Assembly: GCA_913063055.1 (NCBI GenBank)
Contig: CAJXZK010000032.1
Coordinates: 1 to 32,895 of the forward strand
Length of the DNA stretch: 32,895 nt
Origin: an uncultured bacterium
GTDB taxonomy: Bacteria > Cyanobacteriota > Vampirovibrionia > Obscuribacterales > Obscuribacteraceae
Direction of reading: 5' to 3'
The notes beneath the pieces were generated by a model, which was not told the DNA's origin, ran no database searches, and worked only from the letters and a program-made list of their open reading frames with translations. How positions within the stretch are numbered: position 1 is the first letter of the stretch; the number at the start of each line of letters is the position of its first letter. Below, piece after piece: positions 25,981-32,895 of the stretch. The position numbers were made by a program, and so were the translations under genes.

Positions 25981-26004
25981 ATTTCGTTACCCAGAGCAAA
26001 ACAC
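25981..26004 (+). repeat. 24-bp repeat, copy 1 (upstream of the Ro60 fragment)
   Basis: ATTTCGTTACCCAGAGCAAAACAC-like sequence at 25981-26004 recurs exactly at 27622-27645, upstream of the full-length Ro60 gene. Together with the Ro60 fragment that follows, it shows that regulatory and coding DNA were copied together. Confidence 0.9.
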
Positions 26005-26012
26005 ACTTAAGC

Positions 26013-26137
26013 TCCAGTCAAAGCTACAGCTAATTTGGTGCCCAACAACGCCTGTGGTCTCAGCTTTGCTGTAGACGATTGGACAATGCTGCGACGTTTT
26101 CTCGCGCTCGGCAGCGAGGGTGGCTCCTATTATTTTG
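26013..26137 (+). pseudogene. Duplicated 5' fragment of the Ro60 gene
   Basis: This stretch matches 27773-27897, the start of the intact Ro60 gene, with no gaps and about eight mismatches over about 120 bases. It encodes roughly residues 16-57 of Ro60 in frame (VKATANLVPNN onward to GSEGGSYY). Most differences are synonymous. After 26137 the similarity stops abruptly. Compared with the intact locus, the fragment lacks the sequence between the 24-bp repeat and Ro60 codon 16, including the start codon. It is a remnant, not a working gene. It most likely reflects a past tandem duplication with loss of the rest. Confidence 0.88.
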
Positions 26138-26390
26138 TATTTGCCAGTTCGCACGAGATTGTAAACTCGTCGTCCCTCGGAAGTAACCGCGTATTCATCT
26201 CCCAAACCGGTCATCCATTTTCGGTCGAGAGAAAACTGTCTAGCGACAATGTAGTCGGATATTCCAGTGCTTCCAGCGGTATTTCTCACCACATCTCTGA
26301 ACAGAATATTCCAACCTCAGCGATATCTCTAGCTGAACTCACCTTCGGTGGTTACCACTTGGTTCTATTTGTGCGAAACTTGCAATAGTA
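26138..26390 (-). pseudogene. Possible remnant of an unrelated gene, minus strand
   Basis: Just after the Ro60 fragment breaks off, the minus strand reads a protein-like sequence of about 75 residues (VSSARDIAEVGIF at 26341 downward, then DYIVARQFSLDRKWMTGLG and DEYAVTSEGRRVYNLVR). Its amino-acid use is more natural than the plus-strand frame. It runs straight into the reversed Ro60 fragment, so it cannot be a complete gene. I do not recognise the family. A start of another gene, truncated by the rearrangement, is the likeliest reading. Confidence 0.4.
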
Positions 26391-27727: not shown

Positions 27728-29314
27728 ATGCCGAAACTAAATCTGCACTTTTTTACACGCAACAAGAAGGCCCCAGTCAAAGCTACAGCTAATCTGGTGC
27801 CCAACAACGCCGGTGGTCTCAGCTTTGCTGTAGACGACTGGACGATGCTGCGCCGTTTTCTCGTGCTCGGCAGCGAGGGCGGCACCTATTATGTGGGCGA
27901 AGCCAAACTCACTGTCGATAATGCCCAGGCGGTTATGCGACTACTTCTGGCTGAGCCATTAAAAGTAGTAGATGAAATCGTAGCGATTTCAAAATCAGGC
28001 CGTTCGGCTAAGAATGACGCTTGCCTTTTTGCCCTGGCAATGGTGGCAGGCCACGCCAATGATGAAGGCAAAGCAGCCGCACTGGCAGCCCTGCCATTGG
28101 TGGCGCGCACAGCCACTCATCTATTTACTTTCGTTGAATACGCCCAATCATTTCGCGGTTGGGGCCGTGGCTTAAGGCGTGCTGTCGCTAACTGGTATAC
28201 AAGTATGCCGCTAGACCGACTGGCATTGCAGCTAACTAAATATCAGCAACGCAATGGCTGGTGCCACCGTGATTTGCTGCGACTATCGCATGCTAAAGCC
28301 GACGATAGCGCTCGCAATTTGCTTTTCAAATTTGCCATAAATGGTTCTGTCGAAGGAATTGAAAACCCAACTATTCTTGCATTCCAAAAATTGCGCGAAG
28401 AAGGGCTCGACGATGCTGCCGCAGCAGTCATTGTCGATCAAAATAGTGTGCCAATAGAACTGGTGCCAGCAGAACTGCGCGGCCCAGCAGTCTACAAAAC
28501 CCTGACACAACATGCCGGCCTTGAGTGGTTGGTACGCAACGTTGGTAATCTATCTAAGGCTGGCGTTCTCACTGTACAAAACCCCGAAACACTCAAGCTT
28601 GTCGCTGATAGGCTGGGCGACAAAGCCGCTTTGGAAAAATCACTAATGCACCCGCTCAAGCTGCTGGCTGCGCTTGTGGTCTATCGCAGTGGTCACGGGG
28701 TGCGCGGCTCAGGAAGCTGGGTACCAAGCCCGGTGATTGTTGATGCCTTGAATGATAGTTTTTATAGCGCCTTCAAATCAATCACTCCCAGTGGCAAGAG
28801 GCTATGCCTTGGTCTTGATGTATCTGGCTCCATGGCCAGTATGAACGTTAATGGTATCGCTGGTCTAAGGGCCCGCGAAGCCTGCGGTGCCATGGCTTTG
28901 GCCACAGCCAAGGTTGAAGAAAATCCAACATTCGTGGCCTTCGATGTCTCGCCCTATCATCTTGCCCTAAGTGCAAACCAAAGGCTTGATGATGTGGTTA
29001 GCCTTCTAGCTCGCACTGGTGGAGGTGGCACCGATTGTTCGATTCCAATTAAATGGGCGCGCGAAAATAAGGTTCCTGTTGATGTTTTCGTCATCTATAC
29101 CGATTCTGAAACCTGGTATGGAAACGAACACCCCGTGCAGGCGCTAGATAGCTATCGTCAAGTTATGGGCATCGAGGCTAAGCTCGTTACTGTTGCTATG
29201 GCGGCTAACAAGGTATCGTTGGCCGATTGCACTGACAGTCGTATGCTCAACGTGGTCGGCTTCGACACCAATACGCCAGAAATAATTTCGCAGTTCATTA
29301 GAGGTGAGATATAA
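27728..29314 (+). CDS. rsr: Ro60 orthologue (Rsr), TROVE and vWA domains
   Basis: Ro60 is a ring-shaped RNA-binding protein. Its HEAT-repeat ring holds the 3' ends of misfolded RNAs and binds Y RNAs on its outer face. In Deinococcus it works with exoribonucleases in rRNA maturation and stress RNA decay. The 528-residue product has the TROVE HEAT region (about residues 28-350, with SKSGRSAKNDACLFALAMVA and FVEYAQSFRGWGRGLRRAV) and a C-terminal vWA domain (about 355-528). The MIDAS metal site is DVSGSM (Asp364, Ser366, Ser368), with GGGGTDCS and IYTDSE completing it. Length is typical. GGGTGAA lies before the ATG. A Y RNA begins 2 nt after the stop codon, probably on the same transcript. A damaged copy of the 5' end lies 1.76 kb upstream. 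Confidence 0.96.
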   Translation: MPKLNLHFFTRNKKAPVKATANLVPNNAGGLSFAVDDWTMLRRFLVLGSEGGTYYVGEAKLTVDNAQAVMRLLLAEPLKVVDEIVAISKSGRSAKNDACLFALAMVAGHANDEGKAAALAALPLVARTATHLFTFVEYAQSFRGWGRGLRRAVANWYTSMPLDRLALQLTKYQQRNGWCHRDLLRLSHAKADDSARNLLFKFAINGSVEGIENPTILAFQKLREEGLDDAAAAVIVDQNSVPIELVPAELRGPAVYKTLTQHAGLEWLVRNVGNLSKAGVLTVQNPETLKLVADRLGDKAALEKSLMHPLKLLAALVVYRSGHGVRGSGSWVPSPVIVDALNDSFYSAFKSITPSGKRLCLGLDVSGSMASMNVNGIAGLRAREACGAMALATAKVEENPTFVAFDVSPYHLALSANQRLDDVVSLLARTGGGGTDCSIPIKWARENKVPVDVFVIYTDSETWYGNEHPVQALDSYRQVMGIEAKLVTVAMAANKVSLADCTDSRMLNVVGFDTNTPEIISQFIRGEI

Positions 29315-29316
29315 TC

Positions 29317-29464
29317 GAGAAGCCGGGTCGAAGGATTCAGGTTATCAATGGTCGATAGGTCACAGGTTCAATTCCTGTAGAAGAATTTGGCAACAAATTC
29401 TTTGTAGCTCAGTGTTAGAGCAATTGAATAAACACCTGCTCCAAAACTTATCCGGCACCTCTTT
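29317..29464 (+). ncRNA. Y RNA with permuted tRNA-like domain (YrlA type)
   Basis: The ends pair: GAG 29317-29319 with CTC 29459-29461, and GCCGG 29322-29326 with CCGGC 29452-29456. Next come GGA with TCC, and CAGGT 29338-29342 with ACCTG 29434-29438. The 5' strand carries GGGTCGAAGG and GTTATCAA, strikingly like the Ro-binding strand of animal Y RNAs. The far end is a tRNA read in permuted order. It begins with a variable-loop-like AGGTC (29357-29361) and a T arm (ACAGG 29362-29366, loop TTCAATT, CCTGT 29374-29378). An 8-bp acceptor stem AAGAATTT/AAATTCTT (29381-29388, 29395-29402) follows, closed by GGCAAC. Last come T8-A9 and a D arm (GCTC 29407-29410, loop AGTGTTA, GAGC 29418-29421). ATTGA 29423-29427 pairs with TCAAT 29345-29349 as the anticodon-stem equivalent. 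This matches bacterial YrlA RNAs. Confidence 0.93.
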
Positions 29465-29785: not shown

Positions 29786-32700
29786 TTGAAGAGAGTCATA
29801 TTCAGTTTGGTAAGTGTGGGCTCTTCATTGGTCCCAAGCTCCTTCAAGCCGGCGCCAAGCTCTAACAAGAGACGACAGCTTAGTCGCACCTATAGCCTCG
29901 AGAAGACCGGGATGACGCAAAAGCTCCTTGCCGCCTCACTGTTATTGCTAGCTTCCGCACCGGCACTGACTTCGGTTCGAGCATATGCCCAGGTCTTTGA
30001 CCAACCGGCTACTGTCAACACCGTTCCTCATAGCGTGAGTCTAGACACCACTACGTCTTCAGCTGTTTCAGTGGCAGGAATAGGCGCTGGGTCGACCCAG
30101 GGCATCCTTGTCACAACGACCGAAATGATTCCAAAGGGCACTTCCACCGATTCACAAAGTGGCACCGGAGCAAACGCCCCTACTGTACCTCAAGCTCCCG
30201 GAACACCGCAGGTTGATGTCGTTAGTGGCTTGATTCCAGCCGTTGCGGCAGTGACCTTGACTCCAGATGTACCAGTACTTCCAACGGCTAATACACATTC
30301 AACAACTTCCAGCACCGTAGCTAATGCGGCTCCAGTCACTGACTCAACTACGAACAATCCGATTAATCCTGTTGGCACCAGCGCTCATTCTGGAACGGTT
30401 ACTGTAACCACTGCCCCATCCACCAGCAGCCAAGATTCCTCAGCAACTGCTACAGCTCCGGTTTCAGCCACCCCACATTCTTCAACTGTTTCCGCAGCTC
30501 CGGTTGCACCTAATGCCGATACATCTGGAAGTATTCCTTCCGCGCCTGTAGCAGCACAAACTGTCGTGACCACTCCCACTACTCCCTCAGCTCATATCAC
30601 CCTAACCAATGGAACCGTCTTTGGCACTGGTCTTGGTCTCGATCTCAGCTCTAGCCAGACAACAATTGCAGCTCCTGTAGACCAGCCCGTTAACATTGTA
30701 GTAGGGGGCACAATAGGTGCTAATGGGATTGTGACCGGCGGAACCACAGTGACAATTGCTCCTGGGCAAATGATTACTGCTTCACAATATGTAGCGCTAA
30801 CGCAGGTGGTCGAAAACGGCAGTCAAAGTATCGTAATTACTGCCACTGGCGCAGCTGATGGCGGCAGTTTTTCATTACTGGCTGGGCAGACAGGAACTTT
30901 GAGCAGCCTGGTTTTGCCAACCAATGTAACTCTAGGTGGTATTGGATTTACCGATGCTAATCCATTCACAGTTAGTGGTTCAGCAAGTATCCTTGGTTCG
31001 TTCTTCAGCCTGCAAACGAATTCATCGTCATCTTCAATACTGAACTTTGGCAATTTAACGGTAAGCGGCCTTCTCTCGGGTGACTCGTCACAACTAATTT
31101 CCTCTGGACCTTTTCATATCCCAAGCGGCTTATTCTCCTCTTCGGCTTTAACACTGAATACGGTTGGCTCTCTACAAAACTTCGGCACCATCAGTTCGGC
31201 CGGTATACTTAACATAAATGCCGGATCTGACTTCACCAACAGTGGCATAATTAATGCTGCTACAGCTCTCAATATCAATACGCCCCAAATTTTCAATCTT
31301 TCTGTAGGCAACCAGGCGGCTTCTATTCTTGCTGGTCAGAGCGTCAATCTTAACATCGCGCAGCTAGTTAACTCCGGCAACATCGCTAGCATGTTGGGCG
31401 ACATCAACGCCTCTAGCAAAGCTAGTTTGTCTGTAGAAAATTCTGGTGGTGCGCTGAAAGCTACCAACGGCACAATCAACTTAGTCAGCAACAATGACAC
31501 TTTGAGAGTCATGGGTGGCAATTTCGATGCACCTTCTCTCAACCTCAAGGCTGGACACTCAATAGTTGAGCTGCAAGCCGACGCAGTAAGCGGTGTGGTT
31601 AATGCTTCTGCCGACAACGTACATTTATATACAAGCCAATCAGATCTCAGACTAGGCAATATTGATGCCTCTGGAGATCCGACTCTGGCTAGCCAAGCCA
31701 ATATCATTATCGATGGCACTATTGCCCCTACCAATGGTGCGAACCTGGCGATTGTTGCTGGCGGCAATATATTGAGCGGTGTCGGAGGCCAGCTCGATAC
31801 CCGTGTGCTGACACCAGCTGGTGGCAATGGTGGAAACCTTAGTTTAATAGCGGGTGCGAACTTTACTGTCGACGGTGGTGGCAATGTCGTATTGACCGAT
31901 TCGGCTAATGCTGGCAAGGGGAGCATTACTGGCGGCTTCATTGATCTGACCGGCAACAACGGTGGCACTGGACCGATAACCACTATCACCACAGCTGGTA
32001 CTGGCGCAACAGGTAACGCAGGCTACGTTCAACTCGTAGCCTATTCCGGCACTGGCACTGGGAACGGGATAGGTAGTGGTTCTATTATGCTGCCCACCAC
32101 TGTTTCAATAGATGCCAGCGCGGCTAATGGAAATCGCGGTGACGTCAGCATTATTTCAGGCGGAACTGTTCAGACGGGTTCTATTACCGCCAATAAAGTG
32201 TCAATTTCGACCTTCACACCAACTGTTGGCAGTGGAATGTTCTTTGATGGCACAGGCACCGCCAGCAACGGCATTAACTCATTTGCGACAAGTGGTACTG
32301 TCAAGAACACTGTTGTTCAAATTATAGGAAATACTTCAGCTACAAACGATGTAAGTATTTCTAGCGGAACCGTGAGTATAAACGGAAATATTTCAGCGAA
32401 CGGCGCTGGCGGTCAGAGCGGCGCTTCACTTGACGGTGGTGATGGACATAACATCAACATCAACGCGGTTCTCGGCGTTATTATGCAAGGCAGCTTGAGT
32501 GCCGTGGGTGGAGGTGGAGCCGGCAGTGGCTCAGCTACATCCACTATGGACGGAGGCAAAGGCGGCAATGGTGGCCAAGTTACTTTAACGACGACTCAAG
32601 CTCTTTCTCAAGCAATCAATATTAATGGCGGAATTAACGTCTCTGGCGGCGGTGGAGGCGGTGGAGCTGGTAGTTCTGAAACAACAGCTGCAACGAATGG

Positions 32701-32895
32701 CGGCGCTGGCGGTGTTGCCGGACTAGTGAAGATAAGCTCAGCTGGTGGCGTCATAATATCCGGAAAAATACTAGAGCATGACGGTGGCGCTGGTGGTGCT
32801 GGAGCCAATGTGATTGGCGGGGTCGGCGGTGGCGGCGGCGGTGGCAGCGCCTACGGCGGCGGTGGCGGCGGTGGCGGTGGTGGCACAGGCAACAT
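29786..32895 (+). CDS. Large filamentous-haemagglutinin-like exoprotein, C-terminus beyond window
   Basis: The frame is open from the TTG at 29786 to the window edge (over 1,030 codons, incomplete). The TTG follows GGGGTGAG by five bases. An in-frame ATG at 29912 is the alternative start. Residues from that ATG form a clear signal peptide (MTQKLLAASLLLLASAPAL, cleaved near AYAQ). With the TTG start there is a 42-residue basic extension, as in very large secreted adhesins. A Pro/Thr/Ser/Val-rich stalk of about 190 residues follows. Then come strand-turn repeats rich in Asn, Gly, Ser and Ile (such as NFGNLTVSG, LQNFGTISSAGILNINAG, SGGTVQTGSI), typical of right-handed beta helices in haemagglutinin-like proteins. 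The last 150 residues become a nearly pure Gly stretch with Gly-Ala linkers. It is probably a cell-surface adhesin; its secretion partner is not in the window. Confidence 0.88.
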   Translation, partial: MKRVIFSLVSVGSSLVPSSFKPAPSSNKRRQLSRTYSLEKTGMTQKLLAASLLLLASAPALTSVRAYAQVFDQPATVNTVPHSVSLDTTTSSAVSVAGIGAGSTQGILVTTTEMIPKGTSTDSQSGTGANAPTVPQAPGTPQVDVVSGLIPAVAAVTLTPDVPVLPTANTHSTTSSTVANAAPVTDSTTNNPINPVGTSAHSGTVTVTTAPSTSSQDSSATATAPVSATPHSSTVSAAPVAPNADTSGSIPSAPVAAQTVVTTPTTPSAHITLTNGTVFGTGLGLDLSSSQTTIAAPVDQPVNIVVGGTIGANGIVTGGTTVTIAPGQMITASQYVALTQVVENGSQSIVITATGAADGGSFSLLAGQTGTLSSLVLPTNVTLGGIGFTDANPFTVSGSASILGSFFSLQTNSSSSSILNFGNLTVSGLLSGDSSQLISSGPFHIPSGLFSSSALTLNTVGSLQNFGTISSAGILNINAGSDFTNSGIINAATALNINTPQIFNLSVGNQAASILAGQSVNLNIAQLVNSGNIASMLGDINASSKASLSVENSGGALKATNGTINLVSNNDTLRVMGGNFDAPSLNLKAGHSIVELQADAVSGVVNASADNVHLYTSQSDLRLGNIDASGDPTLASQANIIIDGTIAPTNGANLAIVAGGNILSGVGGQLDTRVLTPAGGNGGNLSLIAGANFTVDGGGNVVLTDSANAGKGSITGGFIDLTGNNGGTGPITTITTAGTGATGNAGYVQLVAYSGTGTGNGIGSGSIMLPTTVSIDASAANGNRGDVSIISGGTVQTGSITANKVSISTFTPTVGSGMFFDGTGTASNGINSFATSGTVKNTVVQIIGNTSATNDVSISSGTVSINGNISANGAGGQSGASLDGGDGHNININAVLGVIMQGSLSAVGGGGAGSGSATSTMDGGKGGNGGQVTLTTTQALSQAININGGINVSGGGGGGGAGSSETTAATNGGAGGVAGLVKISSAGGVIISGKILEHDGGAGGAGANVIGGVGGGGGGGSAYGGGGGGGGGGTGN

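Follow-up and report, generated by a model that had tools for sequence, protein, structure and literature searches.

What is encoded in the short stretch that follows the Ro60 gene in an uncultured member of the Obscuribacteraceae, a separate RNA, a tRNA gene in unusual order, or an appendage of the Ro60 messenger? The question is raised by a window of 32,895 nucleotides (positions 1 to 32,895 of contig CAJXZK010000032.1, assembly GCA_913063055.1; contig C32 of this Obscuribacterales metagenome-assembled genome), whose nearest named relative is JAKFVU010000050. A preliminary description of positions 29317-29464, made from the sequence alone, had proposed a Y RNA with a Ro60-binding stem and a circularly permuted tRNA-like head. 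The best overall explanation is very probably a Y RNA of the bacterial type, about 140 nt long, that adjoins Ro60, probably has its own promoter, and combines a predicted Ro60-binding stem with a permuted tRNA tip. Its structure was established here by covariation, together with its location and its co-occurrence with Ro60; Ro60 binding, tethering of polynucleotide phosphorylase (PNPase) and tRNA-type modification to dihydrouridine and pseudouridine are taken from work in other bacteria. The evidence from the wider RNA family is of more interest than the window element alone.

Structure and conservation of the RNA

The Ro60 gene and the parts of the RNA are arranged as follows.

27728-29314, plus strand: Ro60 (Rsr) gene, 528 amino acids (aa), with Pfam domains PF05731 (TROVE) and PF25045 (vWA_Ro60) and an intact metal-ion-dependent adhesion site (MIDAS) motif, DVSGSM
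29319-29464, plus strand: putative Y RNA gene with estimated ends and core structure at 29322-29456, identified by covariation, covariance model matches and a sub-threshold Rfam YrlA match
29322-29328, plus strand: 5' strand GCCGGGU of the basal, predicted Ro60-binding helix (helix 1), pairing with AUCCGGC at 29450-29456; 100% of cells paired, one two-sided pair
29325-29346 (29325-29334 and 29340-29346), plus strand: predicted Ro60-binding motif GGGUCGAAGG N5 GGUUAUC, near-invariant across homologues
29338-29342, plus strand: CAGGU of helix 3, pairing with 29434-29438
29343-29357, plus strand: anticodon-arm site, here merely UAUC/GAUA with loop AAUGGUC, lacking U33
29357-29361, plus strand: variable-loop-like AGGUC
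29362-29378, plus strand: T arm with loop TTCAATT (helix 4), two two-sided changes
29381-29402, plus strand: acceptor-like stem 29381-29389/29394-29402 (helix 5), closed by the GNRA loop GCAA at 29390-29393, six two-sided changes
29407-29421, plus strand: D arm GCTC (29407-29410) / GAGC (29418-29421) with loop AGTGTTA, T in place of G19
29434-29456, plus strand: 3' strand of the predicted Ro60-binding stem, ACCUG...UCC...AUCCGGC (helices 1-3)

Homologues of the RNA lie directly 3' of Ro60 in G001, G015, G032 and G039, as in the window genome (G000), which has a second copy, 78% identical, on contig C221 at a site remote from Ro60. In an alignment of six homologous sequences, the named structure kept 97.0% of its pair cells, against 89.9 ± 1.3 in shuffles and at most 44% when the partners were slid. 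Nine pairs are changed on both sides, giving a covariation score of 0.318 compared with 0.174 ± 0.024 in shuffles (0/500). Of these two-sided changes, one is in the basal helix and eight are in helices 4-6, within the T and acceptor stems. Helices 1-3 are 100% paired and contain a single two-sided pair, because the sequence of this stem is so strongly conserved. The acceptor stem is closed across the homologues by GNRA loops (GCAA, GUAA, GAAA).

The Y RNA identity given in the preliminary description is borne out by this covariation, by the adjacency to Ro60 and by the basal stem with its permuted tRNA module. All elements of the head that it had described, in the order T arm, closed acceptor stem, D arm, are present, among them the T loop TTCAATT, the AGGTC segment and the D arm GCTC/GAGC. 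The compensatory changes that it had proposed to seek in relatives downstream of rsr are the nine pairs above. Folding, which it had also proposed, gave -43.9 kcal/mol for the 148-nt segment; shuffled sequences averaged -31.0 ± 3.5 (z = -3.7), and none of 200 was equally stable. Its start point, 2 nt after the Ro60 stop codon (29312-29314), is corrected here, the basal helix beginning about 8 nt past that codon.

Shorter elements are found at several of these loci. Hairpins with Ro-type motifs (for example GACCGGGACG..GAGGGTTAT..CCGGTC) and no tRNA module are located just past the main RNA (L004-L006) and at L007/L008, L010 and L009 (2880-2950); they may possibly be second, short Y RNAs. Genome G018 has two Ro-motif hairpins 3' of Ro60, only the second of which includes a tRNA module, and in G031, G033 and G044 short hairpins directly follow Ro60, with the full RNAs a few hundred bases farther.

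Association with Ro60 and transcription

Covariance model R1 was run on 117 relatives, an RNA being called at E <= 1e-8 and Ro60 by a TROVE search plus a protein search. The RNA was found in nine of the ten Ro60-bearing genomes of the window's family, the tenth Ro60 running off its contig, and RNA of this class was found in one (G005) of 40 family genomes without Ro60 (Fisher p = 3.9e-8 for 9/10 versus 1/40). Matches of 49-72 bits adjoin annotated Ro proteins in actinophages and Ro60 in Enemella. Matches under about 35 bits were not used, the low-scoring ones being dropped because several are adjacent tRNA genes that imitate the permuted order, such as a tRNA-Arg pair in G066 and the window genome's own tRNA-Asn on C39. 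R1 detects Y RNAs that Rfam overlooks. The extension of the Ro60/Y RNA system to the source lineage, as suggested in the preliminary description, is supported, and the system is now placed in an uncultured lineage related to Cyanobacteria; no report of a Y RNA from the Obscuribacterales lineage was found in the literature collection searched.

Arrays of tRNA genes adjoin the Ro60 genes of actinophages and of some genomes of the cyanobacterial phylum (L092, L096, L101, L102, L105, L113, L114). In phage SM23 (L104, 2171-2237), the submitters' tRNA-Asn annotation falls within the Y RNA upstream of a Ro-like gene.

Two promoter-like hexamers precede the RNA.

29287-29292, plus strand: -35-like hexamer TTCGCA, a consensus match only
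29310-29315, plus strand: -10-like TATAAT of the putative Y RNA promoter, overlapping the Ro60 stop codon, with a 17-nt spacer after TTCGCA

The promoter scan by itself is not significant (1 found, 0.8 expected). The six -10 bases are kept as NTA-TAA-T in G001, G015, G032 and G039, though the encoded C-terminal residues differ, and the same TATAAT-like box precedes the displaced paralogues in G000 and G005. Since the box is conserved while the coded residue varies, a dedicated promoter is favoured where the scan alone would be insufficient, and the Y RNA is probably transcribed from it, starting near 29322; read-through transcription from Ro60 is less supported. The earlier proposal that the RNA is cotranscribed with Ro60 and cut out is accordingly the less supported one. 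No intrinsic terminator was found by a scan of the locus.

The short distance from the Ro60 stop codon, no more than about 8 nt, would also fit a cis element of the Ro60 mRNA 3' end, acting as a stability element, an attenuator or an autoregulatory Ro60 site and not as a separate RNA. This is quite improbable, given that the window's genome has a paralogue at a site far from Ro60, preceded by the same promoter-like box, that G005 carries a copy and no detected Ro60, and that the actinophage members are located upstream of Ro60. A separate Y RNA is accordingly preferred.

Elsewhere in the window, part of a second Ro60 (aa 11-57, 81% identity, one stop) is present at 25999-26139, with the intact gene about 1.6 kb downstream; it is the remnant of a partial duplication. 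A very long, repetitive, Ser/Gly/Thr-rich, adhesin-like open reading frame (29786-32893) begins about 320 bp past the Y RNA and leaves the contig end.

Anticodon arms, a second RNA class and unpermuted relatives

In most homologues the segment that separates the Ro motif from the variable loop forms a hairpin whose loop has 7 nt, such as UCGA-CUUCCAA-UCGA (G039), UCA-CUGCCAA-UGA (the paralogue of the window genome) and UCG-CUACGAA-CGA (G031). This anticodon arm, kept in relatives and lost in the window copy, had been overlooked in the preliminary description. Arms were scored at positions fixed from the T stem, with a variable loop of 4 to 6 and shuffled segments as control. Twelve non-redundant Obscuribacterales RNAs scored 62.5 versus 25.8 ± 3.9 when shuffled (maximum 41.5 of 2000), a comparison that ignores relatedness and so overstates independence. 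A later second set, adjacent to Ro60 and drawn from actinophages, Actinomycetota and Alphaproteobacteria, scored 69.0 versus 34.9 ± 4.7 (maximum 51.5). In 25 RNAs with an arm, the three inner pairs are paired in 25/25 through 3-5 pair types, and U33 and A38 are each present in 25/25; these figures describe the arm and not its frequency, as members lacking or misfitting it (the window copy, G001, Enemella by this scoring, TunaTartare 1, Stigma 1, Bosea, Rhizobium and Jay2Jay) and close copies (Tonenili, G005 and G032) are excluded.

The paralogue (G000:C221:6518-6655; L024/L017) lies between a thioredoxin-like and a hypothetical gene and carries a canonical arm with a Gly GCC-like loop, CUGCCAA. 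A near-identical copy is found in G005, in which Ro60 was not detected. In the Rfam consensus of YrlA just 4 nt separate the basal helix from the T stem, leaving no anticodon arm; a review names the D, T and acceptor arms as the tRNA mimicry of YrlA (PMC8394870), and its circular permutation relative to tRNA is already known (PMC11472068). The pattern suggests that the arm-bearing relatives and the actinophage Y RNAs mimic a whole tRNA and, for the comparative set, that copying of a complete tRNA, anticodon arm included, is common among Y RNAs.

Given such arms, these loci could be read as permuted tRNA genes of the kind found in red algae, which yield a working tRNA once their precursor has been circularised and processed. 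Most of the RNAs do have an anticodon arm with U33, and ARAGORN accepted 18/21 of them after re-ordering; this was rejected as proof, since arm-shuffled versions are still accepted in 65-90% of cases. The reading is largely refuted by the 4-nt acceptor loop, which is too short to accommodate CCA or processing sites: the window RNA, closed by GCAA, does not qualify as a recognised tRNA with a processable acceptor end. The basal Ro-type stem is moreover among the best-conserved parts, a usable anticodon arm is missing from the window copy, and ARAGORN called no native tRNA gene in the window. A permuted tRNA gene is thus scarcely credible, and a Y RNA with a permuted tRNA tip remains the preferred identity.

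Several properties of the window copy weigh against that identity or against its tRNA likeness. No Rfam family, Y RNA families included, matched the window RNA at the gathering threshold. At a relaxed threshold YrlA (RF02553) was, in line with the search suggested in the preliminary description, the best match (21.8 bits, E 0.027), with an alignment that covers precisely the T arm, the acceptor stem and the D arm; that score is far under the curated cut-off of 69, and the RNA is not assigned to RF02553. The copy lacks a canonical anticodon arm, and it and G001 have an arm score of 2 compared with 4.5-7 in the others. A whole-tRNA mimic was taken to be marked by a stem of 3 bp or more, located ahead of the variable loop and capped by a 7-nt loop that contains U33; the paralogue and the other relatives show these features, and these two copies do not. 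In both, G19 of the D loop is replaced by T, and the T loop of G001, the closest relative, has U56 in addition, so that the tRNA elbow of the window copy may be weakened. The Ro60-adjacent copy of the window's genus may be the derived one. The actinophage Y RNAs adjoining annotated Ro proteins likewise miss the RF02553 cut-off (at most 46.8 bits). A minus-strand match to RMST_3 (E 1.7) was rejected as chance.

R1 also identified RNAs in family members without Ro60 (G012, G017, G034, G036, G037, G038 and G040). These class B RNAs combine a distinct basal stem, GCCUGU.CUCC..GGAGCAUACA..CCGCU, with an anticodon arm and the permuted module of the first class; two-sided changes affect 14 pairs, compared with 5.0 in shuffles. 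Model R2 matched 8 genomes strongly, and 8/8 are among the 13 that encode a 300-aa protein with ThiF/E1-like, JAB-like and small putative ubiquitin-like (Ubl) proteins (p = 1.9e-9, related genomes not being independent). Weaker class B copies flank the same operons. The labels 'Ubl' and 'ubiquitin-like operon' rest on gene order and on the ThiF and JAB matches. A 527-aa protein is encoded beside class B RNAs in 10/13 operon genomes plus G033 (p = 3.4e-11). It contains a vWA MIDAS motif and shows a weak sequence match to Ro60, and the top five PDB matches of its AlphaFold model (mean predicted local distance difference test score only 65) are human, phage and Deinococcus Ro60, at probability 1.00; as modelled, it is most likely a divergent Ro60. 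Y-like RNAs with the permuted module were observed flanking the ThiF/JAB/putative-Ubl operon and the 527-aa protein at L078, L079, L080 and L081 and in G016, G028, G045 and G048. With a divergent Ro60-like protein and Y-like RNAs linked to a ubiquitin-like operon, it becomes directly testable whether RNA quality control and protein conjugation are connected in bacteria.

Relatives in unpermuted order were found on Picosynechococcus plasmids, where three normal-order tRNA-like units are located upstream of Ro60 (L100, 2042-2444). The first of them (about 2042-2170) is interrupted after the D arm, and before an Asn-like anticodon arm, by a Ro-type hairpin that has a GUAA loop of its own; the remaining two are recognised by the Rfam tRNA model as tRNAs with 45-50 inserted bases. 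Further insert-bearing tRNA matches of about 105-138 nt are present at Ro60 loci of the sampled cyanobacterial genomes and two more Picosynechococcus plasmids, and an Anaerolineae Ro60 locus has one (L014, 1592-1721). The loci with unpermuted, hairpin-bearing tRNA-like genes are L100, L109/L110, L118, L122, L123, L127, L129, L136, L138, L139, L140 and L014, and in some units the Ro60-type hairpin replaces the anticodon arm. By their order of parts, the permuted and unpermuted forms are one circle opened at different points. R1 also matches tandem unpermuted units when these are read in the permuted frame, which suggests that the permuted Y RNA could arise as an internal unit of a tandem array.

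These observations can be joined in a single reading, which is held with slightly more confidence than doubt. Bacterial Y RNAs would be whole tRNAs, anticodon arm included, into which a Ro60-binding hairpin was inserted where the D and anticodon arms meet. The unpermuted form would survive in cyanobacteria and an Anaerolineae, where it often lies next to Ro60 as tandem copies; the permuted Y RNA would be the same circle cut elsewhere, its acceptor closed by a tetraloop and its Ro stem open, perhaps as an internal unit of a tandem array. The divergent Ro60-like protein of Obscuribacterales would have an RNA class of its own, wired to a ubiquitin-like conjugation operon. Insertion of a Ro60 hairpin into a tRNA at the D/anticodon junction would offer an origin for the circular permutation.

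Predicted function and comparison with known systems

By analogy with other bacteria, the basal stem with its GGGUCGAAGG/GGUUAUC motif would bind the outer surface of the Ro60 ring. The tip has the form of a tRNA opened between the D and anticodon arms, its acceptor end sealed by the GNRA loop. The Y RNA would most likely gate the ring and tether Ro60 to an RNA-processing partner such as PNPase, as described for YrlA (PMC8394870). The tip may serve as a docking and tRNA-mimicry module recognised by tRNA enzymes; in the arm-bearing relatives, the window's paralogue included, it could be readable as a whole tRNA, for instance by anticodon-acting enzymes, the window copy itself having no arm. The Y RNA might instead act mainly as a decoy or sensor for tRNA-cleaving ribonucleases, its tip competing for or reporting anticodon nuclease attack and Ro60 delivering it to repair or decay. 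Relatives and phages do carry arms with varied anticodons, tRNA genes are close to Ro60 in several phages, and a competitor role has been raised for YrlA; Salmonella YrlA, however, was not cut by the anticodon nuclease (PMC7790460), and the window copy lacks the arm. Overall such a role is considered unlikely, and gating and tethering of Ro60 are preferred; for the RNAs that do carry the arm it is a serious alternative.

Among known systems, YrlA (RF02553; Salmonella, PDB 6CU1) shares with the window RNA the basal Ro-binding stem, the permuted T arm, closed acceptor and D arm, and the position near Ro60/Rsr; the window RNA differs in its longer acceptor stem with a GNRA loop, and its paralogue and most relatives in their anticodon arm. 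In the Y RNA/Rsr/PNPase system of Deinococcus radiodurans (RYPER), Rsr is a close homologue of the window Ro60 (2NVO, its nearest solved structure, E 1.9e-120); a PNPase gene was found in the window's genome, and a similar tether is presumed. Permuted tRNA genes of algae and archaea have the 3' part of the tRNA upstream of the 5' part, as in the window RNA, whose acceptor, in contrast, is closed by a tetraloop and whose ends are joined to a Ro60 stem, so that a tRNA product is unexpected. Animal Y RNAs carry a motif of the type GG..CGAAGG N GUUAUC, similar to that of the window RNA, and are not known to have a tRNA-like module. Their 7-bp helix followed by a bulge (PMC4726728) is likewise found in the window RNA.
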